Positions 25,694-52,152 of a stretch of 52,152 nt of DNA are shown here, piece after piece. The first letter of the stretch is position 1; every line of letters begins with the position of its first letter. Source of the stretch: Hydrogenophaga sp. (GTDB lineage: Bacteria; Pseudomonadota; Gammaproteobacteria; Burkholderiales; Burkholderiaceae_C). The translations under genes were made by a program, and so were the position numbers. The DNA lies in contig JAGKSX010000023.1 in assembly GCA_018993155.1 (NCBI GenBank), positions 1 through 52,152 of the forward strand, given 5' to 3'. The notes beneath the pieces are model-generated. The model was not told where the DNA came from and searched no databases. It was given only the letters and a program-made list of their open reading frames with translations.

Positions 25694-25722
25694 TGTCGTT
25701 TCTACCGTTCTTTTGTTTTCCC

Positions 25723-26553: not shown

Positions 26554-26619
26554 CCGTCAGGGCCGCCCGCGATAATGCGGGGACCAGAATCCCACAACAA
26601 GAGAGAGGACAGGAGCAAC

Positions 26620-28451: not shown

Positions 28452-28455
28452 GCGT

Positions 28456-29658: not shown

Positions 29659-29668
29659 GGGGTCTTGT

Positions 29669-30241: not shown

Positions 30242-30402
30242 AGCCCCGTATTCTGGCAGGCCCCCTGGGGGTGGGCCGTTGTCACCAAAACTTCATGCGA
30301 TTGCCATGCGGGAGACACCCGTGGTTCGCACACTGCCTGTTCATGACCACAGCTTCACTCAACTCCGCGCCCCTGGTGGGCGCACTGACCCAGGAGCCCG
30401 CC

Positions 30403-31245: not shown

Positions 31246-31246
31246 C

Positions 31247-32179: not shown

Positions 32180-32207
32180 GCCTTGCCGCACCAGGGAGAG
32201 AGACAAC

Positions 32208-33308: not shown

Positions 33309-33309
33309 T
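33276..33309 (+). promoter_or_regulatory. Putative PhoB box and -10 for ppk
   Basis: CTGTCAC-ACAA-ACGTCTT (33276-33293) has two 7-mers in 11-bp register, the second degenerate. AATAAT begins 10 bp downstream (33304), the same geometry as at pstS. It lies inside the 3' end of the glycosyltransferase gene. Confidence 0.55.
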
Positions 33310-33384
33310 CGACACATGGTGCGCCAGGGATCGCCGGCCGGGAGCGGCGGGCAGCGGGCGAACCCTTCGATTCCAGCGGCATCC

Positions 33385-35463
33385 ATGAGCGGCAACACCC
33401 TGCATCAGAAGCTACCCCTCCTCGATCGCGATCACAGCATCCTCGCCTTCAACGAACGCGTGATGGACTGGGCGCGCCGGGCCGACGTGCCGTTGCTGGA
33501 GCGCCTGCGCTACCTGAGCATCGTCTCCAGCAACCTGGACGAGTTCTTCGAGGTCCGCGTGGCGCCCCACCTGACCGCTGCCCGGGCCAACGAACAGCGC
33601 GGCCCGTTCACCTCGCTGTCCTACGAACAGCTCTCGGACAAGGTGCATTCGCTGGTCGCCCAGCAATACGCCATCTACAACGACGAGTTGCTGCCGCTGC
33701 TGGAGAAGAAGGGCATCAAGCTCATCTCGCACGGCGAGCGCAATCCGCGCCAGCGCCGCTGGGTCAAGGAGTTCTTCATCAAGGAAGTGCAGCCGCTGCT
33801 GATGCCGGTGGGTCTGGACCCGGCCCACCCGTTCCCGCAGGTGGCGAACAAGTCGCTCAACTTCATCGTGCGCCTCACGGGCAGGGACGCTTTCGGCCGA
33901 GAGAACGAGATCGCCATCGTGAAGGTGCCGCGCATCCTGCCGCGCTTCTTCCGCATGCCACCGGTCAAGGGCTCCAAACAGACGCACTTCGTCTCCATCT
34001 CCAGCCTGATCCGTTCGCACCTGAACGACCTGTTTCCGGGGCGCCAGGTCACCGAGTTTTCCCAGTTCCGTGTCACCCGCCATTCCGATCTGGCGGTGGA
34101 CGAGGAAGAGGTGAAGAACCTGCGCACCGCCTTGCGCAAGGGCCTGCAGCAGCGCCACTATGGCCAGGCCCTGCGGCTGGAGGTCTCGGCCGGCTGCTCG
34201 GTCCACCTCTCCAACTTCCTGCTGGAGCAGTTCGCGCTGACCGAGCGGGCGCTGTACCGCGTGCCCGGCCCGGTCAACCTCGTGCGTCTGAACCAGCTGA
34301 TCGACCAGGTCGAAGCACCCGCGCTGCGCTTCGAGAGCTACAGCGCGGGCTGGCCGGCCCAGCTCACACCCGGGCAGTCGTACTTCGAGCGCCTGCGGCA
34401 GGGCGACGTGCTCATCCACCAGCCCTTCGAGAGTTTCGATGCGGTGCTGGGCTTCCTGCGCGAAGCGGTGGAAGACCCCGACGTGCTGGCCATCAAGCAG
34501 ACCATCTACCGCACGGGCGCCAAGTCGGAGCTGATGAACCTGCTGCGCGAAGCCGTGCGCCGTGGCAAGGAAGTCACGGCGGTGGTGGAGCTCAAGGCGC
34601 GCTTCGACGAAGAGGCCAACATCAACTACGCCGAGCGGCTGGAGTCGGTGGGCGCCCAGGTGGTCTATGGCGTGGTGGGACTCAAGACGCACGCCAAGAT
34701 GCTGCTGGTGACGCGCCGCGAGGCCACGGGCCTGCGCCGCTACGCCCACCTGTCCACCGGCAACTACAACCCCGGCACGGCACGTCTCTACACCGACCTG
34801 AGCTACCTCACGGCCGATGACGCGCTCACCGCCGACCTGGAGCAGATCTTTCTGCACCTGGCGAGCCAGAACCGCCTGCCCAAGCTCAACAAGGCCCTGA
34901 TCGCGCCGTTCCATCTTCACAAGGCCATGCTCGACAAGGTGGAGGCCGCGGGTGCCGCCGCCAAGGCCGGGCTGGACGCTCGCATCGTCCTGAAGATGAA
35001 CGCCCTCACTGACGAGCCGATGGCGCGCGCGCTGGCCGTGGCCTCTCAGCAGGGCGTGAAGATCGACCTGATCGTGCGCGGCGCCTGCATCCTGCCTGCG
35101 CAGGTGCCGGGCTTTACCGACAACGTGCACGTGCGCTCGGTGATCGGGCGCCTGCTGGAGCACTCCCGGGTGTTCTACTTCCGCACTGGCGAGGTGGAGG
35201 AACTCTGGCTTTCCAGCGCCGACTGGATGAACCGCAACATGCTGCGGCGCATCGAGCTCGCATGGCCTGTGACCGACAGCGCGCTGCGCCATCGCATCAT
35301 CGACGAGTGCCTGCAGGCCTACCTGCACGACACCAAGGACGCCTGGCTGCTGCGGCCGGACGGAAATTACGTGCCGGCCGGGGCCAATGGCAACGGCCGG
35401 GGCCGCATCACCTTGCATTCGGCGCAGGCCAGCCTGATGGCCTTGTATGGCAGCAAAGGCTGA
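33385..35463 (+). CDS. ppk: Polyphosphate kinase 1
   Basis: 692 residues. The N-domain (LDRDHSILAFNERVMDWARR) and head domain are followed by the catalytic pair of PLD-like domains. GLKTHAKMLLV near residue 436 carries the phosphorylated His, YAHLSTGNYNPGTARLYTD follows, and a second HxK-like region is VHVRSVIGRLLEHSRVFYF. It makes polyphosphate from ATP. An in-frame ATG at 33316 would fall at the inferred transcription start, so 33385 is preferred. A PhoB-type promoter lies upstream. Confidence 0.96.
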   Translation: MSGNTLHQKLPLLDRDHSILAFNERVMDWARRADVPLLERLRYLSIVSSNLDEFFEVRVAPHLTAARANEQRGPFTSLSYEQLSDKVHSLVAQQYAIYNDELLPLLEKKGIKLISHGERNPRQRRWVKEFFIKEVQPLLMPVGLDPAHPFPQVANKSLNFIVRLTGRDAFGRENEIAIVKVPRILPRFFRMPPVKGSKQTHFVSISSLIRSHLNDLFPGRQVTEFSQFRVTRHSDLAVDEEEVKNLRTALRKGLQQRHYGQALRLEVSAGCSVHLSNFLLEQFALTERALYRVPGPVNLVRLNQLIDQVEAPALRFESYSAGWPAQLTPGQSYFERLRQGDVLIHQPFESFDAVLGFLREAVEDPDVLAIKQTIYRTGAKSELMNLLREAVRRGKEVTAVVELKARFDEEANINYAERLESVGAQVVYGVVGLKTHAKMLLVTRREATGLRRYAHLSTGNYNPGTARLYTDLSYLTADDALTADLEQIFLHLASQNRLPKLNKALIAPFHLHKAMLDKVEAAGAAAKAGLDARIVLKMNALTDEPMARALAVASQQGVKIDLIVRGACILPAQVPGFTDNVHVRSVIGRLLEHSRVFYFRTGEVEELWLSSADWMNRNMLRRIELAWPVTDSALRHRIIDECLQAYLHDTKDAWLLRPDGNYVPAGANGNGRGRITLHSAQASLMALYGSKG

Positions 35464-35467
35464 CGAC

Positions 35468-35965
35468 ATGGAAAACCGGACCATGGACCTGATTCTGTGG
35501 CGGCATGCCGAGGCGCACGACCACCCCGAGCCATTGACCGGGCGGCCCGGTGATTCCCAGGATCTGGCGCGGCGCCTGACCCCGCGCGGCGAAAAACAGG
35601 CCACCCGCATGGCCGCCTGGCTGGATCGGCAACTGCCCGAGGGCGCCCGCATCTGGAGCAGCCCGGCCGTTCGCTGTGAAGAGACGGTGCTGGCGCTGGG
35701 GCGCAAGTACAAGCTGCGCGACGACCTCTCGCCCGACGGCGACCCGCTGGCCTTGCTGGAACTGGTGCAATGGCCCTACGGCAAATCACCGGTGGTGGTG
35801 GTGGGCCATCAGCCCACGCTGGGGCGCGTGGTGGCCCGCCTGCTGGGCCTGACCGAAGAGGACTGTTCGGTGAAGAAGGGCGCCGTGTGGTGGCTGCGCC
35901 ACCGCGAGCGCGATGGCGTGGGCCAGACCGTGGTGGTCACGGTGCAGACGCCCGAGCTGATCTGA
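35468..35965 (+). CDS. sixA: Phosphohistidine phosphatase SixA-like
   Basis: 165 residues. LILWRHAEAHD has the RHG-type nucleophile His, TPRGEKQATRMA and VVVGHQPTLGRVVA carry the second His and Arg sites. SixA removes phosphate from phosphohistidine proteins. AAAGG lies 8 nt before the ATG at 35468; 35483 is an alternative start. It is 4 nt downstream of ppk, so it shares the ppk transcript, and abuts the convergent H1-like gene. Confidence 0.9.
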   Translation: MENRTMDLILWRHAEAHDHPEPLTGRPGDSQDLARRLTPRGEKQATRMAAWLDRQLPEGARIWSSPAVRCEETVLALGRKYKLRDDLSPDGDPLALLELVQWPYGKSPVVVVGHQPTLGRVVARLLGLTEEDCSVKKGAVWWLRHRERDGVGQTVVVTVQTPELI

Positions 35966-36454
35966 TCAGGCGGCTTTTTTGGCGGGTGCCGCGCGGCGGA
36001 CCACCGGGCGCTTGGCGGCGGCCTTGGGTGCGGGTGCCGATTTTTTTGCGCTTGCCTTCTTGGCCACGGGCTTGGCGGCAGGGGATGCCACCTTGGCCGC
36101 AGCTTGGGTCGCGGGTGCGGCCGGCTTGGCAATCGCCTTGGCTGCGGGTTTCGCGGCCTTCCTGGCGGTGGGTTTTGCCACGGGCTTGGTGGCCGTCGGC
36201 TTGCCGGTCACCGTCGGACGGCCCGTCTTGAGCGTGGGCACGGCGGCGAGTGCCACCTTGTACGCCGCGTCATTCAGGCCCTGCAACACCATCAAACCAG
36301 CGCGCAGCAGTTCGCTCTTCTTGACGCTGGTGCCCAGTGCGATCGCGCGGGTCTTGAGCTGGTCGATGGCGGCGAACTCGGTCTTGGGGATGGTGAAGCT
36401 GTCGCGCACCAGCTTGGGTTTCTTGGGGCTGGTTTTGTTGCTCTGACTGGCCAT
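35966..36454 (-). CDS. Ribbon-helix-helix protein with histone H1-like Lys/Ala/Pro tail
   Basis: 162 residues in two parts. The N-terminal ~60 residues (VRDSFTIPKTEFAAIDQLKT, then LGTSVKKSELLRAGLMVLQG) have the strand-helix-helix pattern of ribbon-helix-helix DNA-binding proteins. The last ~90 residues are a low-complexity Lys/Ala/Pro tail (KPAAKAIAKPAAP, KKASAKKSAPAPKAAAKR) like histone H1 or AlgP tails. GGAG lies 7 nt before the ATG. It sits between the ppk-sixA and ppx genes and has a well-matched PhoB box 74 bp upstream. I infer a Pho-regulated basic protein that may bind DNA and/or polyphosphate; this is not established. Confidence 0.8.
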   Translation of the reverse strand: MASQSNKTSPKKPKLVRDSFTIPKTEFAAIDQLKTRAIALGTSVKKSELLRAGLMVLQGLNDAAYKVALAAVPTLKTGRPTVTGKPTATKPVAKPTARKAAKPAAKAIAKPAAPATQAAAKVASPAAKPVAKKASAKKSAPAPKAAAKRPVVRRAAPAKKAA

Positions 36455-36527
36455 GAATGCACTCCGGGGATGACAAAAGGGGCCGGAGTATAAACCGTAT
36501 ATACCGTTTTCCGTCTACCTCGGAACC

Positions 36528-36545
36528 GTGACAGCTGTGTGACGG
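36528..36545 (-). promoter_or_regulatory. Putative PhoB box upstream of the H1-like gene
   Basis: On the minus strand CCGTCAC-ACAG-CTGTCAC, two 7-mers in 11-bp register, with one mismatch in the first to CTGTCAC. TAGACG follows 10 bp downstream as a poor -10; a better TATACT lies further on, near 36490. Confidence 0.6.
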
Positions 36546-36553
36546 TGTGGGCG

Positions 36554-38038
36554 CTACCGGATGTCCGCCGTGAACTTCCAGGCCGACTTCTGCCAGGCCA
36601 CCACTTCTTCACCCAGCAGCCAGGCCGACTGCGGATAGCGTTTGGCCCATCCCGGGTTGGTCGAGAGCTTGAAGGCGCGCGGCTTGTAGCTCAGCTTGAC
36701 CGACTGGTACTCCGGCATCTGGCGGGCGTGGCAGAGCAGCACGGCCAGGCGCAGCGCCATGAGCTGCTTGGCGAACAGCTCGTCCATCAGGGCGTCTTCG
36801 AGCTTGCGCAGCTTGCCGCGTTGGCCCATCACCAGCTGGCTCATGCGGTGCAGTTCGGGCAGGGAAAAGCCCGGGGCATCCATGTTGTCCAGGATGTACG
36901 CGCCGTGGTGGTGGGAGCGTTCGTGCGAGATGTGCGTGCCGATCTCGTGCAGGCGCGCCGCCCACGCCAGTTTCTGCGAGTAGCGCTCGTTCTGCGCGTC
37001 GAGCGCCGCGATCTGGGCGAAGAGGGCGGTGCTGACCTCGCTGACCCGTTGGGCCTGCGCGTCGTCGGCCGAGAAACGGTGGGCCAGCCAGCGCACGGTG
37101 CGCTCGCGCACGTCGCCACCGTCGGTGTCGCGATCGATCAGGTCGTAGAGCGCACCGTGGCGAAGCGCGCCCTGGGCCGGCACCATCTGCTCGATGCCGA
37201 AGAGGTCGAAGATGGCGCGCAGCACGCTCACACCCCCTCCGATCACCGGGCGGCGGTCGTCCTTCAGGCCTTCCAGGCGCAACTGGTCCGCGCTGCCCGC
37301 CTTGATCATCCGCTCGGTCAGCCAGTCCAGTCCGGCGCGCGTGACCACGCCGGAGGCCCAGCCATTGGCCGCCAGCATGTCGGCGACCGCCCCCACGGTG
37401 CCCGAGGAGCCGTAGGCGATGGTCCACTCGGGCGGCGGAAATTTGTCCAGCGCCTCGTCGATCACGGCCTTGGCCGCCACTTCGGCGGTCTTGAAGGCCG
37501 ATGCGGTGAACTGGCCGCGCGGAAAGTAGCGCGTGGACCAGGCCACGCTGCCCAGGCGGTACGACTCCATCGCGCGCGCCGTGTAGCCCTGGCCCAGGAT
37601 CATCTCGGTCGAGCGCCCGCCAATGTCCACCACCAGCCGCTTTTCGTCCGAGTGGGGCAGCAGGCGGGACACACCCTGGTAGATCAGGCGGGCTTCTTCA
37701 TGGCCCGACACCACATCGATCGAGAACCCCAGGATGGCCTGGGCGTTGCGCAGGAACTCGTCGCGGTTCTTCGCTTCGCGCAGGGTCTGTGTGGCCACGG
37801 CCCGGACTTGCTGTTTCTTGAAGCCGTGCAGCCGCTCGGCGAACCGCGCCAGGCACTCCCAGCCTCGCTCCATGGCGGCCTGGCTGAGGTTCTTTTCCTC
37901 GTCCAGCCCGGTGCCCTGGCGCACGGTTTCCTTCAGGTATTCGATGCGCTCGATATGGCCCGAGTGGTAACGGCCGATCTCCAGCCGGAAACTGTTGGAG
38001 CCGAGGTCGATGGCGGCGAGGAGGGTTCCGTTTTGCAT
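36554..38038 (-). CDS. ppx: Exopolyphosphatase / Ppx-GppA phosphatase
   Basis: 494 residues. The Ppx/GppA actin-like domain has AAIDLGSNSFRLEI at the start, TQTLREAKN, GHEEARLIY, VVDIGGRSTEM and YGSSGTVGA. The C-terminal half is the HD-like domain (LHEIGTHISHERSHHHGAYI). It removes terminal phosphate from polyphosphate and/or hydrolyses pppGpp. It is divergent from pstS, so the genes that make, use and release phosphate reserves are adjacent. Confidence 0.94.
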   Translation of the reverse strand: MQNGTLLAAIDLGSNSFRLEIGRYHSGHIERIEYLKETVRQGTGLDEEKNLSQAAMERGWECLARFAERLHGFKKQQVRAVATQTLREAKNRDEFLRNAQAILGFSIDVVSGHEEARLIYQGVSRLLPHSDEKRLVVDIGGRSTEMILGQGYTARAMESYRLGSVAWSTRYFPRGQFTASAFKTAEVAAKAVIDEALDKFPPPEWTIAYGSSGTVGAVADMLAANGWASGVVTRAGLDWLTERMIKAGSADQLRLEGLKDDRRPVIGGGVSVLRAIFDLFGIEQMVPAQGALRHGALYDLIDRDTDGGDVRERTVRWLAHRFSADDAQAQRVSEVSTALFAQIAALDAQNERYSQKLAWAARLHEIGTHISHERSHHHGAYILDNMDAPGFSLPELHRMSQLVMGQRGKLRKLEDALMDELFAKQLMALRLAVLLCHARQMPEYQSVKLSYKPRAFKLSTNPGWAKRYPQSAWLLGEEVVAWQKSAWKFTADIR

Positions 38039-38175
38039 GCGAGACGACGGCGCGGGGCCGAGGGGTGGCCCCAGGGGCTGGATTGAGCGGGAAAGCCCGG
38101 ATTGTGACGCATGGCCGTGAAGCGCCGCCTGTCGGGGGACTCACGGTCGATCGCCTGTTGTGTGACAAGCGTTCG

Positions 38176-38209
38176 ATGTCACATGGATGTCATATTGCCT
38201 GCCTAAAGT
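38176..38209 (+). promoter_or_regulatory. PhoB box and -10 for pstSCA
   Basis: ATGTCAC-ATGG-ATGTCAT (38176-38193) is a near-consensus pair of 7-mers in 11-bp register. TAAAGT starts 10 bp downstream at 38204, giving a class II PhoB promoter about 40 bp before the pstS ATG. The rest of the 210-bp ppx-pstS gap shows nothing else. Confidence 0.78.
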
Positions 38210-38248
38210 CCTCCTTGTTCTGAATCCCCAACCGCTAGGAGTCACTTC

Positions 38249-39280
38249 ATGATCAACAAACGAATTTTCCTCAAGACCGTGGCCGCAGCCGCCATGGCGA
38301 CCGCTGGCATGGGTTCCGCACTGGCCGCCGACATCACCGGCGCAGGCGCTTCTTTCCCCTACCCGATCTATGGCAAGTGGGCTGAGGCCTACAAGAAGGA
38401 AACCAACGTTGGCCTGAACTACCAGTCCATCGGTTCTTCGGGTGGCATCCGCCAGATCAAGGCCAAAACTGTGGCCTTTGGTGCTACCGATGCCCCTGTC
38501 TCCGGTGAAGACCTCGACAAAGACGGCATGGTGCAATTCCCAGCCATCATTGGTGGCACGGTGCCCGTGATCAACCTCGAAGGCTTCAAGCCGGGCGAAC
38601 TGCGCGTGACCGGCCCCGTGCTGGCCGACATGTTCCTGGGCACCATCACCAAGTGGAACGACCCCAAGTTGGCCGCCCTGAACCCTGGCAAGGCGCTGCC
38701 TGACCAGGCCATCACCGTCATCCACCGCTCGGACGGCTCGGGCACCACCTTCAACTTCACCGACTACCTGTCCACCGTGAGCAAGGACTGGGCCGACAAG
38801 GTGGGCAAGGGCGCTGCCGTGAAATGGCCGGCCGCTTCCTCCGTCGGCGGCAAGGGCAACGAAGGCGTGGCCGCCAACGTGAGCCGCGTGAAGGGCTCGC
38901 TGGGCTACGTGGAATACGCGTACACCAAGAAGAACAACATGCCTTTCCTGCAACTGCAGAACAAGGACGGCAAGTACGTGAGCCCGGACGACAAGTCGTT
39001 CGCCGCCGCGGCTGCTGGCGTGAACTGGTTCAGCGTGCCGGGCATGGGCGTGTCCATGGTCGATGCCAAGGGCGCCGACAGCTGGCCCATCAGCACCGCC
39101 TCGTTCATCCTGATGTACAAGCAGCCGACCGACAAGGCCCAGTCCGCCGAAGTGCTGAAGTTCTTCGACTGGTCCTTCAAGAGCGGCAAGCAGATGGCCG
39201 CCGATCTGGACTATGTGGCCCTGCCCGACAGCCTGACGAACGAGATCCGTTCCAAGGTCTGGTCGCAGATCCAGAAGTAA
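38249..39280 (+). CDS. pstS: Phosphate ABC transporter substrate-binding protein
   Basis: 343 residues. A Sec signal peptide (MINKRIFLKTVAAAAMATAG, cut after ALAA near residue 25) is followed by ITGAGASFPYPIYGKW, IGSSGG, VAFGATDAP and HRSDGSGTTFNFTDYL, the phosphate-contacting loops. It captures phosphate in the periplasm for PstCAB. AGGAG precedes the ATG and a PhoB box lies upstream. Confidence 0.98.
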   Translation: MINKRIFLKTVAAAAMATAGMGSALAADITGAGASFPYPIYGKWAEAYKKETNVGLNYQSIGSSGGIRQIKAKTVAFGATDAPVSGEDLDKDGMVQFPAIIGGTVPVINLEGFKPGELRVTGPVLADMFLGTITKWNDPKLAALNPGKALPDQAITVIHRSDGSGTTFNFTDYLSTVSKDWADKVGKGAAVKWPAASSVGGKGNEGVAANVSRVKGSLGYVEYAYTKKNNMPFLQLQNKDGKYVSPDDKSFAAAAAGVNWFSVPGMGVSMVDAKGADSWPISTASFILMYKQPTDKAQSAEVLKFFDWSFKSGKQMAADLDYVALPDSLTNEIRSKVWSQIQK

Positions 39281-39370
39281 TCAGCAACCGACTTGTCCGA
39301 TGACATCCGCCGGCTGGAAAGGGCTGGCCGGCGGATCCCGTTGCTCTCAGGATCACAATACGGAGTCAAC

Positions 39371-40369
39371 ATGAGCGTGGGAACAACCATGAGTTCGAAA
39401 TCTGCGCCGGTAGCGTCCGGCAATCCCAGCATGGTGTCGATTGCCAAACGGCAACGCATCGAAGACATCTTCTTTCACCGGGTCACCCAGGGCTTCTCGC
39501 TGCTGGTGCTGGTGGCCCTGATGGGCATCATCATTTCCCTGTTTGTCAATGCCTGGCCGGCTTTCCAGAAGTTCGGCCTGGGTTTCGTCTGGCGTGTCGA
39601 ATGGGACGTCGTCAACGAGGAGTTCGGCGCCGCGATCGCCATCGTGGGCACGCTGGCCAGCGCCGGCATCGCCTTGCTGATTGCCGTTCCCCTGGCCTTC
39701 GGCATCGCGCTTTTCCTGACCGAAAATTGTCCCGTCTGGCTGCGCCGCCCCCTGGGCACGGCCGTTGAGCTGCTGGCAGCCGTGCCGTCCATCATCTACG
39801 GCATGTTCGGTCTGTTCGTTTTCGCTCCCCTGTTCGCTGACTACGTACAGCCGGGCATGCAAGGTCTGCTGGGCTCGATGCCGCTGATCGGGCCCTTGTT
39901 CGGTGGTGCCACCAACGGCATCGGCATCCTGGCCGCCGGCATCGTGCTGGCCTTCATGGTGCTGCCCTTCATTGCCGCCGTGATGCGCGACGTGTTCGAG
40001 ATCGTGCCGCCCATCCTGCGTGAATCGGCCTATGGCCTCGGTTGCACGACCTGGGAGGTGGTGCGCCGCGTGGTGCTGCCCTACACGCAAAAAGGCGTGA
40101 TCGGCGGAATCATGCTGGGCCTGGGCCGCGCGCTGGGGGAGACCATGGCCGTGACCTTCGTGATCGGCAACGCCAACCGCCTGCCGACTTCGCTGTTCTC
40201 GCCCGGCACCTCGATCGCCTCGACGCTGGCCAACGAGTTCGGTGAAGCGGCCGACTTCCACCTCTCCACCCTGTTCGCCCTCGGTTTCCTGCTCTTCGTC
40301 ATCACCTTCATCGTGCTGTCGGCTGCCAAGATCATGCTGCTGCGCGCTGAAAAGGCCAAAGGTCTCTGA
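39371..40369 (+). CDS. pstC: Phosphate ABC transporter permease PstC
   Basis: 332 residues with six predicted membrane helices, the first near residues 35-60. The EAA-type loop is [26 protein letters not shown], followed by [22 protein letters not shown] lies 8 nt before the ATG at 39371; an ATG at 39389 is possible. It follows pstS by 90 bp and precedes pstA by 11 bp. Confidence 0.97.
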
Positions 40370-40380
40370 GACACCCCACC

Positions 40381-41244
40381 ATGGAATTCAACCACCGCCT
40401 CTACAAGCGCCGCCAGCGCGCCAACGCCATCGGCCTGACCTTGTCCATGGGCGCCATGGTGCTGGGCCTGTTCGTGCTGCTCTGGATCCTCAGCGTGCTG
40501 TTCAGCAACGGCCTGTCCGCGCTGGACTGGAACATGTTCACCCAGTCCACGCCGGCGCCGGGCACGGACGGCGGCGGCCTGGCCAACGCCATTGTCGGCA
40601 GCCTGATGATGGTGGGCTTCTCGGTGCTGGTCTCCACGCCCATCGGCATCTTTGCCGGCGTGTACCTGGCCGAGTACGGCGATACCAGCAAGACCGCCGA
40701 GCTCACGCGTTTCGTGACCGACATCATGCTGTCGGCCCCTTCCATCGTGCTGGGCCTGTTCGTGTACGCCATCGCCGTGGCCACGCTGGGCAATTTCTCC
40801 GGCTGGGCCGGCAGCCTGGCCCTGTCGCTGATCGCAGTGCCTGTGGTGGTTCGCACCACCGAGAACATGCTGCGCCTGGTGCCAGGCAGTCTGCGCGAAG
40901 CCGCTTTCGCCCTGGGCGCACCGCGCTGGAAAGTGGCCACGCTGGTGACGCTGCGCGCGGCCAAGAGCGGCGTGATGACCGGTTTGTTGCTGGCCGTGGC
41001 CCGCATCAGCGGCGAAACCGCGCCGCTGCTGTTGATCGGGATGCGCATCTTCGTGGCGACCCCGCCCGAAGGCTTTTCCTCGCCCGCCACGGTGCTGCCG
41101 ATGCAGATCTTCCTGTGGTCGGACGAAATCGACCGCGGCTTTGTCGAGCGGACCAGTGCGGCTATCATCGTGCTGCTGGTGTTCCTGCTCGCCATGAACG
41201 GCCTTGCCATCTACCTCCGCAACAAGTTCGAGAAACGCTGGTGA
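40381..41244 (+). CDS. pstA: Phosphate ABC transporter permease PstA
   Basis: 287 residues with six membrane helices. [38 protein letters not shown] and [22 protein letters not shown] (EAA loop) are PstA motifs. The C-terminus ([13 protein letters not shown], ending RNKFEKRW) is of the type common in alphaproteobacterial PstA, while the DNA style still matches the left segment. The window appears to switch organism at or just after this gene, so it is the last gene I assign to the left genome. Confidence 0.96.
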
Positions 41245-41600
41245 CTGTAATCCATCCCAACATGGCCGACGACAACGCGAAGATTCGCGCGCGGGACGTC
41301 TGCGTCTACTACGGCGACAAGAAGGCGATTGACGAGGTGTCGATCGACATCTCGCCCAATTACGTCACCGCCTTCATCGGCCCGTCGGGCTGCGGCAAGT
41401 CGACCTTCCTGCGCTGCATCAACCGCATGAACGACACGATTGGCGCGGCCAAGGTCACCGGCCTGATCGAGCTGGACGGCGAAGACGTCAACGCCGCCCG
41501 CATGGACCCGGTGCAGCTGCGCGCACGGGTGGGGATGGTGTTCCAGAAGCCCAATCCCTTCCCCAAGTCGATCTATGAAAACATCGCCTATGGCCCGAAG
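41241..41600. other. Probable junction between two genomes
   Basis: pstA and everything left of it reads as Comamonadaceae-like; PstB beyond its Walker A region and everything to the right reads as Sphingomonadales-like. The break probably lies between the pstA stop and the conserved ATP-binding part of pstB ([11 protein letters not shown] and following), where distant species share long identical DNA. I cannot place it more precisely by eye. Confidence 0.65.
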
Positions 41601-42029
41601 ATCCATGGCTTTGCCGAAAAGAAGGCCGATCTTGATGTGATCGTGGAACGCTCGCTCACGCGCGCGGGCCTGTGGGACGAAGTCAAGGACCGGCTCGATG
41701 ATTCGGGCACGGCGCTTTCGGGCGGTCAGCAGCAGCGCCTGTGCATTGCCCGCGCGATTGCGGTTGACCCGGAAGTGATCCTGATGGACGAACCGGCCTC
41801 GGCATTGGATCCGATTGCGACCGCCAAGATCGAGGAGCTGATCGATGAACTCTCCGGGCGTTACGCCATCGTGATCGTCACCCACTCGATGCAGCAGGCC
41901 GCACGGGTAAGCCAGCGCACCGCATTCTTCCACCTCGGCAAGATGGTGGAGTATGGTCCGACATCGGAAATCTTCACCAATCCCATCGAGGAGCGGACGA
42001 AGGATTATATTACAGGACGTTACGGCTGA
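41262..42029 (+). CDS. pstB: Phosphate ABC transporter ATP-binding protein
   Basis: 255 residues from ATG 41262; a GTG at 41241 overlapping the pstA stop (GTGA) would add seven residues. Walker A is GPSGCGKST near residue 37, followed by [20 protein letters not shown], signature [14 protein letters not shown], Walker B VILMDEP and the His switch VTHSMQQ. It powers PstSCA. The C-terminus ([13 protein letters not shown]) and codon style fit Sphingomonadales rather than the Comamonadaceae-like genes to the left. phoU starts inside the stop (TGATG). Confidence 0.95.
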
Positions 42030-42697
42030 TGGCTGAACATACCGTCAAGGCATTCGACGAAGACATCACCCGCCTGCGCGGGCTGATTGCCGAAATGGGC
42101 GGCCTCGCTGAAGTGGCGATTGCCGAAAGTCTGGATGCGCTGGTGCGCGGGGACGAGGCGCTGGCCGAACAGGTGGTGGCCCGTGACAAGCGCATGGATG
42201 CGCTCGAAATGGAGGTCGACAAGCTGGCGGTGCGGATCATCGCGCTGCGCGCGCCGATGGCCGATGACCTGCGCGAAGTGATCGCGGCGCTGAAGATTGC
42301 AGGCGTGCTTGAACGCATTGGCGATTATTCGAAGAACATCGCCAAGCGCACCGGCATGATCGAAGGCCGCGCCCGGTTTGAACCGCTCACCTTGCTGCCC
42401 ACCATGGGCGAGCTGGCGGGCGAGATGGTGCATGATGTGCTGACCGCCTATGCCGCGCGCGATCCGGATCTGGCGCGCGAGGTGATTGCCACCGATGCCA
42501 AGGTCGACGGGTTCTACAACTCGATCTTCCGCAATCTTGTCAGCTACATGGTGGAAAATCCTTCGACCATTTCGAGCGCGGCGCAATTGCTCTTCGTGGC
42601 CCGCAACATCGAACGCATCGGCGATCATGCGACCAACGTGGCTGAAATGGTGCACTTTGCGGCCACCGGCACCTATCCGCCCGAAGGCGATCGCTAA
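42029..42697 (+). CDS. phoU: Phosphate signalling protein PhoU
   Basis: 222 residues. It has two PhoU helical repeats with the metal motifs IAGVLERIGDYSKNIAKR (about residues 90-108) and LFVARNIERIGDHATNVAEM (about residues 190-210). It links Pst transport to PhoR/PhoB signalling. It overlaps pstB by 1 nt. The sequence type is alphaproteobacterial. Confidence 0.96.
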   Translation: MAEHTVKAFDEDITRLRGLIAEMGGLAEVAIAESLDALVRGDEALAEQVVARDKRMDALEMEVDKLAVRIIALRAPMADDLREVIAALKIAGVLERIGDYSKNIAKRTGMIEGRARFEPLTLLPTMGELAGEMVHDVLTAYAARDPDLAREVIATDAKVDGFYNSIFRNLVSYMVENPSTISSAAQLLFVARNIERIGDHATNVAEMVHFAATGTYPPEGDR

Positions 42698-42845: not shown

Positions 42846-42932
42846 GGTTCGGGCCGCGTTTCATCAAACTGTCGTGTATGTGACACATAGCGTCGGCGAC
42901 GCCCGCCCATGCGGGTCCGAGGAGGCCTTCCA

Positions 42933-43622
42933 ATGTCCGCTGCCAAACTGCTGCTGGTCGAAGATGATCCCGCACTGTCCGAGCTGCTCGAATACCGGTT
43001 CCAGAACGAAGGCTATGCCGTGCGCTGCACCGGCGACGGGGACGAGGCGCTGATTCTGGCGGCGGAGGAAACCCCCGATCTGATCATCCTCGACTGGATG
43101 ATCGAAGGCACCAGCGGCATCGAAGTGTGCCGCCGCCTGCGCCGCGACAAGGAGACGGCGCACGTCCCGATCATCATGCTCACCGCCCGCGAGGCGGAGG
43201 ATGACCGGGTCCGGGGGCTGGAGACAGGCGCCGATGATTACCTCACAAAACCCTTTTCGCCCCGTGAGTTACTGGCCCGCGTCGCCGCCGTGATGCGCCG
43301 CATCCGTCCGGCGCTGGCGGGTGAGACAATCGAGGTGGGCGACCTCAAGCTCGATCCTGTCGCCCACAAGGTCCAGCGCCGCGGACGCGCGCTTCAGCTG
43401 GGGCCGACCGAATACAGGCTGCTGAAATTCTTCATGGAAAGCCCCGGCCGGGTGTTCAGCCGCGGCCAGCTGCTCGATGGGGTATGGGGCACGGGTTCGG
43501 ACATCGAACTGCGCACGGTCGATGTCCACATCCGCCGCCTGCGCAAGGCCATCACCATCGAAGGCGCACGCGATCCGATCCGCACCGTGCGCTCGGCAGG
43601 CTACGCGCTCGAAGCCGTCTGA
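42933..43622 (+). CDS. phoB: Phosphate regulon response regulator PhoB
   Basis: 229 residues. The receiver domain carries VEDDPALSE, the phospho-Asp in LIILDWMIEG near residue 53, and LTAREAEDDRVRGLETGADDYLTKPF. The C-terminal winged helix has LGPTEYRLLKFFMESPGRVF and RTVDVHIRRLRKAI. GAGGAGG lies 8 nt before the ATG at 42933. No phoR is in the window. It ends 2 bp from the convergent dnaE2 stop, with no terminator between them. Confidence 0.95.
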   Translation: MSAAKLLLVEDDPALSELLEYRFQNEGYAVRCTGDGDEALILAAEETPDLIILDWMIEGTSGIEVCRRLRRDKETAHVPIIMLTAREAEDDRVRGLETGADDYLTKPFSPRELLARVAAVMRRIRPALAGETIEVGDLKLDPVAHKVQRRGRALQLGPTEYRLLKFFMESPGRVFSRGQLLDGVWGTGSDIELRTVDVHIRRLRKAITIEGARDPIRTVRSAGYALEAV

Positions 43623-43624: not shown

Positions 43625-46600
43625 CTAGTGAAAATCGCGTGATTTCGGCAGGATACGATGATCGCGCGGATGGCCCGTCACATTGGGAACCGGGGCCCCG
43701 CGTTCGGGCATCGGCCGGTTGACCTCGTCGGCCCGGGCGAGCGGCGCATCGAGCAGGTCATCCGACAGCGCGTGAAGCGCCGCCGTCGCATCGGTCATGG
43801 CGTGCGCGATGACGTGGATCACCTCGTCGTCATATTCCACCCGCCCGCGCACCTCCATCAACCGCGCGCTCATCACCACCTTGCGCTGCTTTTCCTTGAG
43901 ATCGGGCCAGACGACAAGGTTGATGACCCCGGTCTCATCCTCAAGGGTGATGAAGGTCACCCCCTTGGCAGATCCGGGCCGCTGGCGGATCAGCACCACG
44001 CCTGCGACCTGCACCATGCTTCTGAATTTCCTTGATTTCAAATCGCAGGCCCGGACAAATCCGCGTGCGGCAAGATCGGCGCGCAGGAAGGCCATGGGGT
44101 GCGCCTTGAGGCTGAGGCGCGTGGTCTGGTAATCGGCCACAACTTCCTCGGAAAGCGGCATGGCAGGCAGGCGGATCGCGGCCCGCTCCGCCCCCTCCTC
44201 GCGCACCCCGGCCGCGCGGAACAGCGGCAGATCGGCGGCGGGGATCAGGCTCCTCGCATCCCACAGCGCCTGCCTGCGGGTGAGCCCCAATGACGTGAAG
44301 GCATCGGCGCTGGCGAGCCGCTCGATATGCGCAGGGCTGAGGCCCGCCCGCGCGCGCAGATCGGCAATGTCGCGGTAAGGCCCACTGCCCTCGCGCGCGC
44401 TCACCAGCGCGGCGGCGATGTGTTCGGGCAAGCCATCGATCTGGCGCAAGCCAAGGCGCAAGGCCTCACCCGCCAGCGTGCAATCCCAATGGCTTGCGTT
44501 CACATCCACCGGCAGCACCCGCACGCCGTGCTCGGCCGCATCGCGCACGATCTGCGCAGGCGCATAGAAACCCATCGGCTGCGAGTTCAGCAGCGCCGCT
44601 GCAAAGGCGGCGGGGTAGTGGCACTTGAGCCAGCTCGACACATAGACCAGCTGCGCAAAGCTTGCCGCATGGCTTTCGGGAAAGCCATATTCGCCAAAGC
44701 CCCTGATTTGATTGAAACATCTCTGCGCGAAATCGCGGTCATAGCCGCGCGCGACCATGCGTTCGACCATCATGTCCTGAAGCTCGTCCACCATGCCCCG
44801 GCTGCGGAAGGTCGCCATCGCCTTCCTCAGGCGGTTGGCTTCGAGGCTGGAGAACTTCGCGGCATCGAGCGCGATCTTCATCGCCTGTTCCTGAAAGATC
44901 GGCACGCCCAGCGTCCGCCCGAGAATGCTGGTGAGTTCATCGGGCGGGCCATGTTCGGGGGCAGGCGCGGGGATTTGCACGGCTTCCGCCCCCCGGCGGC
45001 GCTTGAGGTAGGGGTGCACCATATCGCCCTGGATCGGTCCGGGGCGGACAATCGCGACCTGAATGACAAGATCATAGAACTCGCGCGGGCGCAGGCGCGG
45101 CAGCATGTTCATCTGCGCGCGGCTTTCGACCTGAAACACGCCCAGCGAATCGCCCCGGCGCAGCATGGCGTAAGTCTCGGGATCCTCGCGCGGGACCGTG
45201 GCCAGCGTCAGGGCGCGGCCGTGATGCGCCGCGAGCAGATCGAGGCATTTGCGGATGCAGGTCAGCATGCCCAGCGCCAGCACATCCACCTTCAGGATGC
45301 CCAGCGCCTCGATATCGTCCTTGTCCCATTCGATGAAGCTGCGCTCGGGCATGGCCCCGTTGCCAATGGGAACAGTCTCGGTAAGCGGCCCCTGCGTGAG
45401 GATGAACCCGCCGACGTGCTGGCCCAAGTGGCGCGGCATCCCGATCATCTGCTCGGTGAGCTTCAGCACCCGGCGCAAGTGCGGATCGGTGATATCGAGC
45501 CCCGTTTCAGCGGCGTGCTTTTCGGAAATCTCGCGCCCCCACCCGCCCCACACGGTGCGGGCCAGCACGCCGGTAACGTCCTCGGACAGGCCCATCGCCT
45601 TGCCCACCTCGCGGATCGCCATGCGCGGGCGATAGTGGATGACGGTGGCGCACAGCCCGGCGCGGTGGCGGCCATATTTCCTGTAGATGTACTGGATCAC
45701 TTCCTCGCGCCGCTCATGCTCGAAATCGACGTCGATATCGGGCGGCTCCTTGCGCTCTTCGGAAATGAAGCGATCGAACAGCAACTGGTGCTTGGCAGGA
45801 TCGACGCTGGTGATGCCAAGGACATAGCAAACTGCGGAATTGGCCGCAGAGCCGCGCCCCTGGCACAGAATCGGCGGATCGCACCCGCGCGCAAAATCGA
45901 CGATGTCCTTGATGGTGAGGAAGTAGCGCGCCAGATCGAGCTTCGCGATCAGCGCCAGTTCGCGCTCCAGCGTGGCGCGCACGGTGTCTGGCACGCCTTC
46001 AGGGTAACGCCGCCCTGCCCCGGCCCAGACCTCGCCTTCGAGGAAGGCTTGCGGGGTCTGACCATCGGGATAAATCTCCTCGGGATATTCGTAAGCCAGT
46101 TCATCGAGGCTGAAATTGCACCTGTCCGCCACCTCGCGCGCAGCGGCGATGGCATGGGGCCAGCGGGCAAACAGGCGTTGCATTTCCTGCGGGGACTTCA
46201 GGTGCCGCTCGGCATTGGGGTGCAGCAGGTGCCCGGCTGCCGCGACGGTGGTCTTGTGCCGGATCGCGGTCATCACGTCCTGCAGAGCGCGGCGTTCGGG
46301 GGCGTGGTAGTGGACATCGTTGGTGGCGAGGAGCCCGAGGCCGTTCGCCCGCGCAAGGCTGTCCAGACGTTCGATCCGGGCGATATCGGCACCGCGGTAG
46401 AGGTAGCTTGCGGCGATGTGGCGGAGCGTGGGGAGTTGCTGCGCGATATCGGCAACAAGATCGGCGAAGCTGGCGGTGCGCTCCATGCTTCCCCCGCCCC
46501 GGACCTGATCCGGGGGGGCGCTCTCTTGCAGGTCGGCTTCGGAAGGGAGCGGGATCCCTGCTCGGGGGCCGGGACGGCGAAAGGGGATAACATTGCTCGG

Positions 46601-47101
46601 CACCTGAATGCTGAACCCCGCATCCAGATCATCGGGTGGGAGCAGGATCAGCTGAACACCCTCGCTGTGCGCTGCAAGCAGCGCGAGGTCGATCTCGCAC
46701 ACGCCCTTGTCCTGCCATTCGCCCGAAAGCGTCTGCATCCGCCCGGTGCTGATGAGGCGCGTGAGCCGACCATAAGCGGCGCGGTCTTCGGGGTAGGCAA
46801 GAAAGGCCAGCCCCTCGACTGTCTCGATACGGCAGCCGATCACCGGGCGCAGCTTGAGCGTCTTTGCCTCGGTGTGGAGGCGCACCACGCCGGCAAGCGA
46901 ATTGACGTCGGCAATCCCCAGCGCATCATAGCCCTGCCCATGCGCTGCCAGCACCAGATCGACCGCATCGGAAGCGCCGCGCAGGAAGCTGAAGCAGCTG
47001 ACAAGGCCCAGCTCCACGAAGGGCGCGCGCGGCGGGGGCACTACGCCATCGGGATCGATGTCGAGCCTACGCTTGTCGGGGGTGAGCGGGGCGTCGGGCA
47101 T
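43625..47101 (-). CDS. dnaE2: Error-prone DNA polymerase DnaE2 (ImuC)
   Basis: 1158 residues from ATG 47101, right after the upstream stop; a TTG at 47122 is less likely. An N-terminal PHP domain (FVELGLVSCFSFLRGASDAV) is followed by the PolIII-alpha palm with DIDVDFEHERREEV for the catalytic Asp pair, a thumb/finger region and an OB domain near the C-terminus. The end ILPKSRDFH is typical of DnaE2. It extends damaged templates with ImuA/ImuB. Residues ~170-204 look like an in-frame insertion of a palindromic repeat. It sits last in the LexA-boxed operon. Confidence 0.95.
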   Translation of the reverse strand: MPDAPLTPDKRRLDIDPDGVVPPPRAPFVELGLVSCFSFLRGASDAVDLVLAAHGQGYDALGIADVNSLAGVVRLHTEAKTLKLRPVIGCRIETVEGLAFLAYPEDRAAYGRLTRLISTGRMQTLSGEWQDKGVCEIDLALLAAHSEGVQLILLPPDDLDAGFSIQVPSNVIPFRRPGPRAGIPLPSEADLQESAPPDQVRGGGSMERTASFADLVADIAQQLPTLRHIAASYLYRGADIARIERLDSLARANGLGLLATNDVHYHAPERRALQDVMTAIRHKTTVAAAGHLLHPNAERHLKSPQEMQRLFARWPHAIAAAREVADRCNFSLDELAYEYPEEIYPDGQTPQAFLEGEVWAGAGRRYPEGVPDTVRATLERELALIAKLDLARYFLTIKDIVDFARGCDPPILCQGRGSAANSAVCYVLGITSVDPAKHQLLFDRFISEERKEPPDIDVDFEHERREEVIQYIYRKYGRHRAGLCATVIHYRPRMAIREVGKAMGLSEDVTGVLARTVWGGWGREISEKHAAETGLDITDPHLRRVLKLTEQMIGMPRHLGQHVGGFILTQGPLTETVPIGNGAMPERSFIEWDKDDIEALGILKVDVLALGMLTCIRKCLDLLAAHHGRALTLATVPREDPETYAMLRRGDSLGVFQVESRAQMNMLPRLRPREFYDLVIQVAIVRPGPIQGDMVHPYLKRRRGAEAVQIPAPAPEHGPPDELTSILGRTLGVPIFQEQAMKIALDAAKFSSLEANRLRKAMATFRSRGMVDELQDMMVERMVARGYDRDFAQRCFNQIRGFGEYGFPESHAASFAQLVYVSSWLKCHYPAAFAAALLNSQPMGFYAPAQIVRDAAEHGVRVLPVDVNASHWDCTLAGEALRLGLRQIDGLPEHIAAALVSAREGSGPYRDIADLRARAGLSPAHIERLASADAFTSLGLTRRQALWDARSLIPAADLPLFRAAGVREEGAERAAIRLPAMPLSEEVVADYQTTRLSLKAHPMAFLRADLAARGFVRACDLKSRKFRSMVQVAGVVLIRQRPGSAKGVTFITLEDETGVINLVVWPDLKEKQRKVVMSARLMEVRGRVEYDDEVIHVIAHAMTDATAALHALSDDLLDAPLARADEVNRPMPERGAPVPNVTGHPRDHRILPKSRDFH
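46490..46590. repeat. Palindromic repeat embedded in dnaE2
   Basis: CCCCGGA and TCCGGGG around CCTGA (46497-46515), with GGGATCCCG nearby (46551), resemble the abundant CCGGATCAAGTCCGG-type intergenic repeats of sphingomonads. Here the sequence is read in frame by dnaE2 and encodes a low-complexity segment with ESAPPDQVRGGGSMERT. Confidence 0.5.
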
Positions 47102-47102
47102 G

Positions 47103-48563
47103 TCAGCCCGCCAGTTCGCCAAGCCGCTTGCGCACCGCCGTCAGATCGGCCGCGAACAGCGCCGCCTGTTCCTCACGCGCCGCCCCGTCCAACCGCAGCA
47201 GGTAAGAAGGGTGGACGGTGACCCACAGCTCCGCTCCGTCATCGAGCACGATCGCCCGCCCCCTTTCGCGGGCAACGCTGACCGTGCGGCCCAGCAAGCC
47301 CCGCGCCGCGCTTGCCCCCAGTGCCAGCACGATCCGGGGCCGCACCAGCGCCCGTTCTGCCTCAAGCCACCAGCGGCAGGTGTCGATCTCCTTGGCCGTG
47401 GGCGACTGGTGGAGGCGGTGCTTGCCCTTCTGCGTGAACTTGAAGTGCTTGACCGCATTGGTGACATAGGCCGCGCCCCGATCAATCGCGGCGCGGGTCA
47501 GATGGTCGTCCAGCAATTGTCCCGCCGGGCCAACGAAGGGACGGCCCGCCAGATCCTCCTGATCGCCGGGCTGTTCGCCGACGATCATGAGCGGCGCGTG
47601 TTCCGGTCCCTCGCCCGCCACGGCGCGGGTGCCGCAGTCTGCGATTGGGCAATCGCGGCAGGCAGCAGCGCCTTGTGCCACTTCGGCAAGCGTTGCAGGT
47701 CGCGCCCGTTCCGCCCGCGCGCCTGCCGCGACCATCGCCGCCTCGCGCGCCTGTGCGCCCGCAATGAGCTGCGGGATAAGCTCTGCCTCGGGCAGGTTCT
47801 TCCAGTATTTCTTGGGCATTTCCGACAGCATCGCGCCGACCTTCAGCCGCGCCGGATTGAAGATCGAAGCATAGTAGGACCGCCACAGCGCCTCGACCGG
47901 ATCGCCGCCGGGGGCATCCTCGCGGCGGGCCGGTGGACCTTCGTGCATCACCTCGCCATCCCAGTGGATGCTGCCGCGCGGGGTGAGGATCGACCAGCGC
48001 ATATTGGCAAAGCGGCGCATGAAGAAGCCCGCTTCGGCGCGCAGGATGTGGTGATCGGGCTCAAACCAGGCGACAAAATGCGGGGTGCCGTCCTCCTCCT
48101 GCACTTCGCGGAAGCGGACGAAGGCGTGCATCTTGTGGGCATCGCGGCGCACTGATTTAGCGAGTTCCTCGATGCGGCGCACCTGCGGATCGGCCTTGTC
48201 TTCCATCAGCCGTGGCTGACGCTGCAGCCGCCACAACGCCTGATAGAGCAAGCCGAAACGCGCTGGGTCCGAATGCAGCGCGGCGCTGCGGGCGATGGTC
48301 AGAAACCGCTGGCTGGCGCGCACGGGCGGAGCATCGGCAGGCGGTGGAGGCAGGCGCTTGTCCCCGCGAGAAGGGCCTTCGGCGGCGAACAGATCGCCCG
48401 TCCCGCCCGGCTCGATCCAGCTGACGCGGTCGGGCGGCACATCGCACTGCACCAGCCCCCGCGCCCGCTCGCGCCAGAAGGCGAAATCATCAGGCGCAGG
48501 CAGGTGGACGGCGTAATGAGAGCCGAGGCTGACGTGCTGCCCTGAACGACTTTGGGCGGCCAT
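47103..48563 (-). CDS. DUF4130 domain - UdgX family uracil-DNA glycosylase fusion
   Basis: 486 residues. The N-terminal ~260 residues match DUF4130, including HKMHAFVRFREV and HHILRAEAGFFMRRFANM. The C-terminal ~200 residues are UdgX-like: Cys-rich CRDCPIADCG (Fe-S ligands), GEQPGDQEDLAGRPFVGPAG, then the UdgX loop GKHRLHQSP whose His is the residue that bonds covalently to uracil sites in UdgX, then VTVHPSYLLR. It is translationally coupled to the radical SAM gene (shared TGATG). The DUF4130-UdgX/radical SAM pair is a known co-occurring set of unclear role. Confidence 0.88.
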   Translation of the reverse strand: MAAQSRSGQHVSLGSHYAVHLPAPDDFAFWRERARGLVQCDVPPDRVSWIEPGGTGDLFAAEGPSRGDKRLPPPPADAPPVRASQRFLTIARSAALHSDPARFGLLYQALWRLQRQPRLMEDKADPQVRRIEELAKSVRRDAHKMHAFVRFREVQEEDGTPHFVAWFEPDHHILRAEAGFFMRRFANMRWSILTPRGSIHWDGEVMHEGPPARREDAPGGDPVEALWRSYYASIFNPARLKVGAMLSEMPKKYWKNLPEAELIPQLIAGAQAREAAMVAAGARAERARPATLAEVAQGAAACRDCPIADCGTRAVAGEGPEHAPLMIVGEQPGDQEDLAGRPFVGPAGQLLDDHLTRAAIDRGAAYVTNAVKHFKFTQKGKHRLHQSPTAKEIDTCRWWLEAERALVRPRIVLALGASAARGLLGRTVSVARERGRAIVLDDGAELWVTVHPSYLLRLDGAAREEQAALFAADLTAVRKRLGELAG

Positions 48564-49801
48564 CAGAACAGCTCCAGCTGCTCGGACCTCTGCGCCAGCA
48601 GCCCGCGCAGGTCGGCGCGGTCGGTGAGCAGCGTCGGACGCCAGTCGATGGTGCAGATGAAGGGCCGCACCTTGGCCACCGACACGGTCAGCCGCGCCAC
48701 ATCGTCAAGCCGCAGCTTGCGGTGCCTGCGCGAGGCAAGGATGCGTGCCACCGCCTTGGTGCCCAGCCCAGGCACGCGCAGCAGCATTTCCTTCGGTGCG
48801 CGGTTAACATCGACCGGGAAACTCTCCCGGAACTTCAGCGCCCAGGCCAGTTTGGGGTCGATATCCAGGGGCAGATTGCCATCCGCCTCGGCCGCATCGA
48901 CCACCTCCTGCGGCGCGAAACCATAGAAGCGCATCAGCCAATCGGACTGATAAAGCCGGTGCTCGCGCAGCAAGGGTGGGCGCTTCAGCGGCAGCACGGC
49001 AGAAGCATCGGGGATTGGCGAGAAGGCGCTGTAATAGACCCGCCTGAGGCCGAAATCCCCGTAGAGCCGGCTCGCCTTGCCGATGATCGCGCTGTCCGAG
49101 GCATCATCCGCGCCCACGATCATCTGGGTCGATTGCCCTGCCGGCGCAAAGCGCGGCGCGTGGCGGAAGCGTTTGCGTTCGTCCTTGGCCTCAACGATTC
49201 GTGCCTTGGTACGCGCAAGCGCGCCTTCGATCTGCCCTGCATTCTTGTCCGGCGCGAGCCGGGTCAGGCCCGCCTGCGTGGGCAATTCGACATTGATCGA
49301 GACGCGGTCGGCATAAAGCCCTGCGGCATGGATAATCTCCGCATCTGCCTCAGGGATGGTCTTGAGGTGGATATAGCCGCGAAAGTCATGCTCTTCGCGC
49401 AGAATGCGGGCGACCTCGACCAGCTGCTCCATCGTGTGATTGGCGCTTCTGACGATGCCGGAGGACAGGAACAGCCCCTCGATATAGTTGCGGCGGTAGA
49501 AATTGAGGGTGAGGTCCACCACCTCCTGCGGGGTGAAGCGCGCGCGCGCGACGTTCGAGCTCTTGCGATTGATGCAGTAGTGGCAATCGAAGATGCAGTG
49601 ATTGGTCAGCAGGATCTTGAGCAGCGAGATGCACCGCCCGTCAGGCGCATAGGCGTGGCAGATACCCATCCCCTCGGTCGAACCGATGCCCTTGCCGCCC
49701 AGCGAATGCTTTTTCGCCGTGCCGGATGAAGCACACGAGGCATCATACTTGGCCGCATCAGCGAGGATTTCGAGACGTTGGCGGAGCGATTGCTGGGGCA
49801 T
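48563..49801 (-). CDS. Putative DNA modification/repair radical SAM protein
   Basis: 412 residues. CIFDCHYC near residue 70 is the CxxxCxxC cluster of radical SAM enzymes; HLKTIPEADAEIIHAAGLYA, SINVELPT and FAPAGQSTQMIVGADDASD follow. A helix-hairpin-helix DNA-binding region lies near residues 340-380 (VPGLGTKAVARILA). This is the radical SAM family that travels with DUF4130/UdgX. A LexA box lies 25 bp upstream of the ATG, so it heads a probable SOS operon with udgX and dnaE2. Its substrate is unknown. Confidence 0.9.
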   Translation of the reverse strand: MPQQSLRQRLEILADAAKYDASCASSGTAKKHSLGGKGIGSTEGMGICHAYAPDGRCISLLKILLTNHCIFDCHYCINRKSSNVARARFTPQEVVDLTLNFYRRNYIEGLFLSSGIVRSANHTMEQLVEVARILREEHDFRGYIHLKTIPEADAEIIHAAGLYADRVSINVELPTQAGLTRLAPDKNAGQIEGALARTKARIVEAKDERKRFRHAPRFAPAGQSTQMIVGADDASDSAIIGKASRLYGDFGLRRVYYSAFSPIPDASAVLPLKRPPLLREHRLYQSDWLMRFYGFAPQEVVDAAEADGNLPLDIDPKLAWALKFRESFPVDVNRAPKEMLLRVPGLGTKAVARILASRRHRKLRLDDVARLTVSVAKVRPFICTIDWRPTLLTDRADLRGLLAQRSEQLELF

Positions 49802-49825: not shown

Positions 49826-49840
49826 GTTCCTTATATGTTC
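49826..49840 (-). promoter_or_regulatory. LexA (SOS) box, alphaproteobacterial type
   Basis: GTTCCTTATATGTTC is a perfect GTTC-N7-GTTC, the LexA site of alphaproteobacteria. It lies 25-39 bp upstream of the radical SAM ATG, in the 77-bp gap to the PilZ gene. It indicates damage control of the radical SAM-udgX-dnaE2 genes. Confidence 0.82.
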
Positions 49841-51891: not shown

Positions 51892-52152
51892 CGCTGAGGG
51901 TCCATTGGCCAGGCAGGTGGGTGCGGGCGCGGAACAATTCGGCATGCCAGGTGGCAGGCCCCGGGGCGGCAGGGTCCCAGCAGCTAGGCAGCGATGGCGC
52001 AGCACGCGCCTGCCAGCGCATCCGAGCCGAGGACAGATCGGGCTGCGCATCCAGTCGCACCAGCCACAACCTGACCCCGTGGCGCTCCGCCGTCAGGCTG
52101 AGCCGGCGCGAGGCGGGAAAACTGAGCGCGCGCGGCTTGCCTGCCATCTCAC
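51770..52152 (-). CDS. imuA: ImuA (partial, 5' end beyond the window)
   Basis: Only the C-terminal ~126 residues are present. GKPRALSFPASRRLSLTAER, PDLSSARMRW and WHAELFRARTHLPGQW match the C-terminal part of ImuA, a RecA-like SulA-related protein of the ImuA-ImuB-DnaE2 mutasome. The frame is open at the right edge, so the start and any LexA box lie outside. Confidence 0.88.
   Translation of the reverse strand, partial: EMAGKPRALSFPASRRLSLTAERHGVRLWLVRLDAQPDLSSARMRWQARAAPSLPSCWDPAAPGPATWHAELFRARTHLPGQWTLSDDAGTLRFASDPDLEAAAAPDFVRLARPTVGRSLAARVHA

Follow-up and report, generated by a model that had tools for sequence, protein, structure and literature searches.

A contig of a draft genome that is almost certainly a mis-join of two genomes inside pstA

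An operon that keeps its gene order while its genes change lineage raises the question of whether its two parts ever stood together in one cell. The window analysed here, the whole stretch of 52,152 nt, is an entire contig (C34) of a draft assembly in 176 contigs, G000 (4.90 Mb, 94.2% complete and 3.3% contaminated). As a preliminary description of the sequence had stated, the order pstS-C-A and then B-phoU-phoB is intact and runs unbroken through it, and that description also proposed a chimera of two genomes joined at the pstA/pstB border. Our analysis leads to a related reading, with a probability of about 0.96: the window is a two-genome chimera, mis-joined during assembly inside pstA, at a short word that the two genomes have in common. 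The features of the window are collected in the table.

Features of the window, with the basis of each assignment
Feature	Coordinates	Strand	Basis
Left parent, DNA of the genus of G000	1..41010	.	congener matches and tetranucleotide score
Left-part genes thrS, infC, pheS, pheT, rpiA, ftsH, folP, glmM, ppk, ppx, pstS, pstC, 5′ pstA			names read from translations, without family search
Hybrid pstA reading frame, 287 aa	40381..41244	+	Pfam BPD_transp_1; NCBIfam TIGR00974 above cut-off
Seam, 23-nt word where both parents agree	41011..41033	+	left alignment ends, right alignment starts
Right parent, Erythrobacter/Porphyrobacter DNA, reaching the contig end	41034..52152	.	alignment to locus L061
pstB, Erythrobacter type	41262..42029	+	TIGR00972 above cut-off
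phoU, Erythrobacter type	42029..42697	+	Pfam PhoU; 100% aa identity to two Porphyrobacter
phoB, Erythrobacter type	42909..43622	+	Pfam Response_reg, Trans_reg_C
dnaE2, error-prone DNA polymerase, Erythrobacter type	43625..47122	-	NF004225 above cut-off
Fused TIGR03915 + UdgX-family protein	47103..48563	-	TIGR03915 and TIGR03914 above cut-offs
Putative DNA modification/repair radical SAM protein	48563..49801	-	TIGR03916 above cut-off
GTTC-N7-GTTC box	49826..49840	.	pattern match in the window
imuB-like Y-family polymerase homologue	50269..52050	-	Pfam IMS, IMS_C, DUF6504 above cut-off

The seam and the hybrid PstA

A DNA query covering 39,500-42,700 was run against 60 relatives, namely 35 congeners and 25 genomes from other families. 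The 3′ half of pstA was aligned in 30 of the 35 congeners with an identity of 75-91%, and in 28 of these 30 the alignment ended exactly at 41,033 (query position 1534), the two exceptional ends lying at 41,047 (G027) and 40,976 (G019). Past this point, congener alignment restarted ~330 nt further on, within pstB, and at 66-70% identity. A query of 40,700-41,400 against 399 genomes drawn from the family gave the same result: among the matches listed, all but the window's own stopped at 41,033, save one at 41,047. From the opposite side, among the matches listed for 114 genomes of the genus Erythrobacter, nearly all best alignments started at 41,010-41,011 or at 40,997, with the exceptions of G101 and G141, which started later, and of G112 and G122, whose best scores were weak. 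The abrupt change of lineage in the pst operon that had been described earlier is therefore real, but its proposed place at the pstA/pstB border (41,241-41,600) is rejected, since the alignments put the change inside pstA, at the GETAPLL codons, ~210-230 nt further left.

Per-position counts against the window were made for 19 of 19 left loci and 77 of 80 right loci. These 80, retained from 512 passing loci, have titles naming Erythrobacter, Porphyrobacter and their kin, Sphingomonadales or unspecified Alphaproteobacteria. Agreement with the window was 93% for left and 3% for right loci at 41,005-41,010, 91% and 86% over the seam word at 41,011-41,033, and 43% and 97% at 41,034-41,039. On the respective foreign side of the seam it was 50% for the right loci (40,910-41,004) and 35% for the left loci (41,034-41,130). 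Within the word, position 41,032 is left-like, being matched by 100% of left vs 12% of right loci, so the shared word may be exactly 21 nt rather than 23 nt if the right parent lacked the T there. The word is identical in both lineages as judged from the relatives tested, which stand in for the parents themselves, and the longest word common to a left and a right relative locus was 22 nt, with a median of 8 nt over 1,463 pairs.

The protein encoded across the seam carries the same change. Up to the residues RIS the hybrid PstA is left-type, GETAPLL is common to both lineages, and from LIGM onwards it is Erythrobacter-type; it scored 254.9 bits against TIGR00974 (cut-off 193.45), a threshold that a hybrid of two PstA halves would also pass. 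Left proteins were 89-100% and right proteins 26-31% identical to its N part (medians of 95.3% for 18 left PstA and 28.7% for 76 right PstA), and 18-23% and 70-100% identical, respectively, to its C part (medians of 21.1% and 90.1%). The PstA rows were chosen by the pattern R-x-x-GETAPL, which gave no row from 1 of the 19 left and 4 of the 80 right loci, so only the residues surrounding the pattern are informative: the window reads [14 protein letters not shown], all 18 left PstA read [14 protein letters not shown], and all 76 right PstA begin with RALGETAPL. PstA family trees, which had been proposed as a check, were built for the two halves, each comprising the window together with 18 left and 21 right rows, the right ones limited to loci with numbers under L050. 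The N part of the window was placed among the left rows and the C part among the right rows, and the branch separating the left and right groups had a support of 100/100 in both trees, with the bootstrap of the C-part tree being unsettled.

Two lineages and two compositions on one contig

The right part had been called Sphingomonadales-like. It does belong to another lineage, and the right parent can be given more closely as Erythrobacter/Porphyrobacter: Erythrobacter dokdonensis (L061, the same as G065) aligned in a single piece over 41,011-52,150 with 81% identity, and the right-type DNA extends, in the second genome's own order, from the seam to the contig end. The stretch from 41,011 to about 42,697 was matched at 83-90% in the better-matching genomes of the genus Erythrobacter, the phoB region at 83-87% in the named right genomes, and the PhoU of the window was 100% identical in amino acids to those of Porphyrobacter sp. 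IPPAS B-1204 and TH134. Against the congeners, pstB of the window matched at 66-71% DNA identity, short pieces aside. The right parent species itself was not found, the nearest Erythrobacter-genus genomes being 85-90% identical to parts of the right side.

The left part follows the genus of G000. Loci L109-L113 were 81-88% identical to it across about 32-41 kb, and five congeners covered most of 4.3-33 kb with main matches of 79-87% whose order and orientation are those of the window. These five were used to check for a further join left of the seam. G003 and G028 were found collinear with the window at 4.3-12.7 and 16.6-33 kb; in G001, G023 and G024 the main pieces kept the same order and orientation, with additional stretches, tens of kb or longer, between them, and G001 has one piece elsewhere in its genome. 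The first 4.3 kb had little match in the five congeners, and we take this stretch and that of about 12.7-16.6 kb, both of poor or variable congener matching, for accessory DNA. The left parent species itself was not found, the nearest congener being 91% identical across pstC-pstA. Each side of the window thus tracks its own, different lineage as far as the seam.

Two features inside the left part were observed in passing. The segment 12,640-16,605 is mostly absent from congener G003, in which the matches stop at 12,640 and restart at 16,605 with ~1.3 kb between them; its ORFs, read by eye, comprise a possible exported protein, a kinase-like protein and a nucleotidyltransferase-like protein. 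At 31,254-31,330, an interspersed repeat of roughly 75 nt lies within a predicted ORF starting at 31,247. It has at least 40 matches in G000, itself included (40 of 119 candidates scored), the others being 76-90% identical, and is also abundant in the five congeners; as DNA it folded no better than shuffles (z -0.43). The first start codon of this ORF may be false, or the repeat may encode its first residues.

The change of composition style that had been described was confirmed by tetranucleotide scores, with opposite signs on either side of the seam; a comparison of left and right profiles had been proposed as a check. Taking congener loci vs Erythrobacter loci as references, both of which contain homologues of the tested genes, all left chunks scored +17 to +79 per kb and all right chunks -32 to -65; at the seam, the preceding 1,011 nt scored +79 and the following 4 kb -58. 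By correlation, 20,001-25,000 was slightly nearer the right reference (0.704 vs 0.684) and 15,001-20,000 was about equally near the left and right ones (0.565 and 0.557). The correlation between the two parts of the window was 0.58, as compared with 0.74-0.88 for four 11.1-kb left chunks against the rest of the left part. All 24 loci on other G000 contigs, which were those retrieved by the earlier searches, were left-like (+12 to +48). To avoid the homologues present in these first references, a second round used independent ones, namely other G000 contigs vs Porphyrobacter DNA beyond the homologous stretch. The region 15,001-41,011 then scored +13 to +65 and 41,034-50,000 scored -50 to -56, with 1-15,000 and the last 2.1 kb (50,001-52,152) near zero; the chunks flanking the seam again had opposite signs (+13 for 35,001-41,011 and -56 for 41,034-45,000). 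The composition flips at the seam, less sharply with the independent references.

The stranded native operon and the origin of the join

Native DNA from downstream of the join, taken from congener G003, matched another contig of G000, C115, over 2.3 kb with 85% identity. This contig of 3,547 nt aligned over practically its whole length to five congeners (78-84%); it starts 147 nt inside the native phoB and carries phoR, its first two genes matching Response_reg/Trans_reg_C and PhoR/HisKA/HATPase_c in Pfam, and in G003 coordinates its edge lies 1,946 nt beyond the seam. The same G003 query revealed no native pstB-phoU in the rest of G000 (40 of 400 candidates scored), and the native continuation was accordingly found only in part, on C115. 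Since C115 holds a cut phoB and the window another one, G000 has two phoB genes on paper, the native copy cut by a contig end and the Erythrobacter-type copy.

The complementary searches were made with the two flanks of the homologous locus in Porphyrobacter TH134, ~9 kb on its upstream and ~13 kb on its downstream side. For the Erythrobacter DNA expected on these sides (8,982 nt upstream and 13,062 nt downstream; 40 candidates scored, of 261 and of 296 respectively), G000 gave only matches of 67-84% and at most 0.9 kb, which are read as conserved genes; the searches covered these two flanks, and Erythrobacter DNA may lie elsewhere in the assembly. The longest of the matches, 0.9 kb at 73% (L133, G000:C60:1060-1972) to the first 1 kb of the TH134 locus, is probably a conserved gene rather than contamination, because the DNA around it has a left-like composition (+16.5 per kb).

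A mis-join across a stretch shared by homologous operons, as suggested in the preliminary description, is supported by the shared word, by the right-type DNA running to the contig end, by the flip in composition, by the lack of flanking Erythrobacter DNA among the G000 candidates scored and by the stranded phoB-phoR. Two bacteria, the G000 organism and an Erythrobacter/Porphyrobacter, each with a pst operon, would have been sequenced together, and their pstA genes would be identical over 21-23 nt at the conserved GETAPLL codons. Over this word the assembler would have crossed from the first genome into the second, with the frame kept because both genes encode the same residues there. The native G000 operon would thereby have been cut off, its 3′ phoB and phoR being left on a separate 3.5-kb contig and the ~1.9 kb between (the end of pstA, pstB, phoU and the start of phoB) being lost from the assembly, in which it was not found. 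We infer that both organisms were present in one sample, that the assembler was the joining agent, and that the size of the word reflects a small k-mer. Assemblers iterating to large k should normally resolve a shared word of 21-23 nt, so that this account presupposes low coverage or a scaffolding step. The GUNC authors' description of misassemblies as relatively rare beside mis-binning (PMC8201837) also counts against a mis-join. Mis-binning of the whole contig was rejected as an explanation, as both lineages sit on a single contig.

Had the join been made in a cell, at least 11.1 kb of Erythrobacter DNA would have entered the genome of the G000 organism by recombination at the word in pstA, as a replacement or an insertion, and left a hybrid PstA. 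The open, in-register hybrid frame and the kept gene order agree with such a transfer, an identity of 21-23 nt is also compatible with a rare recombination event, and a native phoB-phoR on C115 would suit an insertion, yet beside the word the two lineages agree at only 35-50%, which is too little for ordinary homologous recombination, and the phoB-phoR contig, short and broken 1,946 nt beyond the seam, would also need placing. Right-type DNA is still present at 52,152, where the contig stops before any far boundary, and native DNA could resume beyond it. Up to the query end at 42,700, however, pstB-phoU of the window exceeded 71% identity in 0 of 35 congeners, short pieces aside, and the junction was shared by none of these 35 and by none among the matches listed for the 399 family genomes, a search that a transfer private to the species would escape. 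Taken together, it is very improbable that Erythrobacter DNA would have recombined into so distant a bacterium through 21-23 nt to give a working hybrid PstA, and the earlier judgement that a homologous replacement of everything downstream is less likely than a mis-join holds. Such a join, if true, would add both a further PhoB and an SOS mutagenesis cassette to a cell that already has its native phoB-phoR.

A ligation or PCR chimera formed in the library, rather than an error of the assembler, would likewise join two genomes at a common word, and PCR template switching is a mechanism for joining at a shared word. Such a product would be present as one or a few molecules, however, and the assembler must still have favoured these over the native path, which leaves this origin with a very slight chance. 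The assembly mis-join thus remains the preferred reading; it is almost certainly an assembly mistake and holds no biological novelty.

Interspecies chimeric contigs are described, as here, as fragments of two genomes wrongly assembled as one (PMC8201837, PMC3901335), and are defined as a known assembly error (PMC8201837). A study of simulated viral data linked the formation of chimeras with functions or sequences that are conserved (PMC3901335), and the present join falls at a conserved stretch of homologous genes. Its parents are distant, whereas the results section of the same paper has chimeras tending to join close relatives; its discussion places most joins at class, order and phylum level, for simulated viral and viral-bacterial data (PMC3901335). 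As compared with a pstSCAB-phoU-phoB(-phoR) operon, gene content and order are the same on both sides of the seam, but pstA is here a splice of two lineages and the native phoB-phoR lies on another contig.

Genes carried by the right part and their attribution

The GTTC-N7-GTTC box claimed earlier beside the dnaE2-imuB genes is real. It begins at 49,826, and each of the 52 right loci (of 80) that were alignable here has such a box no more than 200 nt upstream of the corresponding gene, the TIGR03916 radical-SAM gene; from its consensus we take it to be a LexA-type box. Further matches to the pattern occur in the left part, at 2,237 and 21,329, about the number estimated by chance. The box precedes a run in the order TIGR03916, fused TIGR03915-UdgX and dnaE2 (43,625-49,840), and its position before the radical-SAM gene in 52/52 loci, together with this succession of genes, suggests that the whole run may be under SOS control. 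The name imuB for the frame at 50,269-52,050 is our assumption. The contig terminates just upstream of it (minus strand; 52,051-52,152), and its end probably falls within imuA, which in the usual gene order lies upstream of imuB. A 125-aa frame at 51,770-52,147 was matched by no NCBIfam model.

The finding is mainly a warning on data quality, and no new biological system comes out of it. The contamination figure of 3.3%, which refers to the whole assembly, gives no clue to the contig affected. The right 11.1 kb (41,034-52,152) should not be attributed to the G000 species: taken as native, it would lead to the false claims that G000 has two phoB genes and a radical-SAM/UdgX/DnaE2/ImuB cassette, and that genes were transferred between distant lineages.
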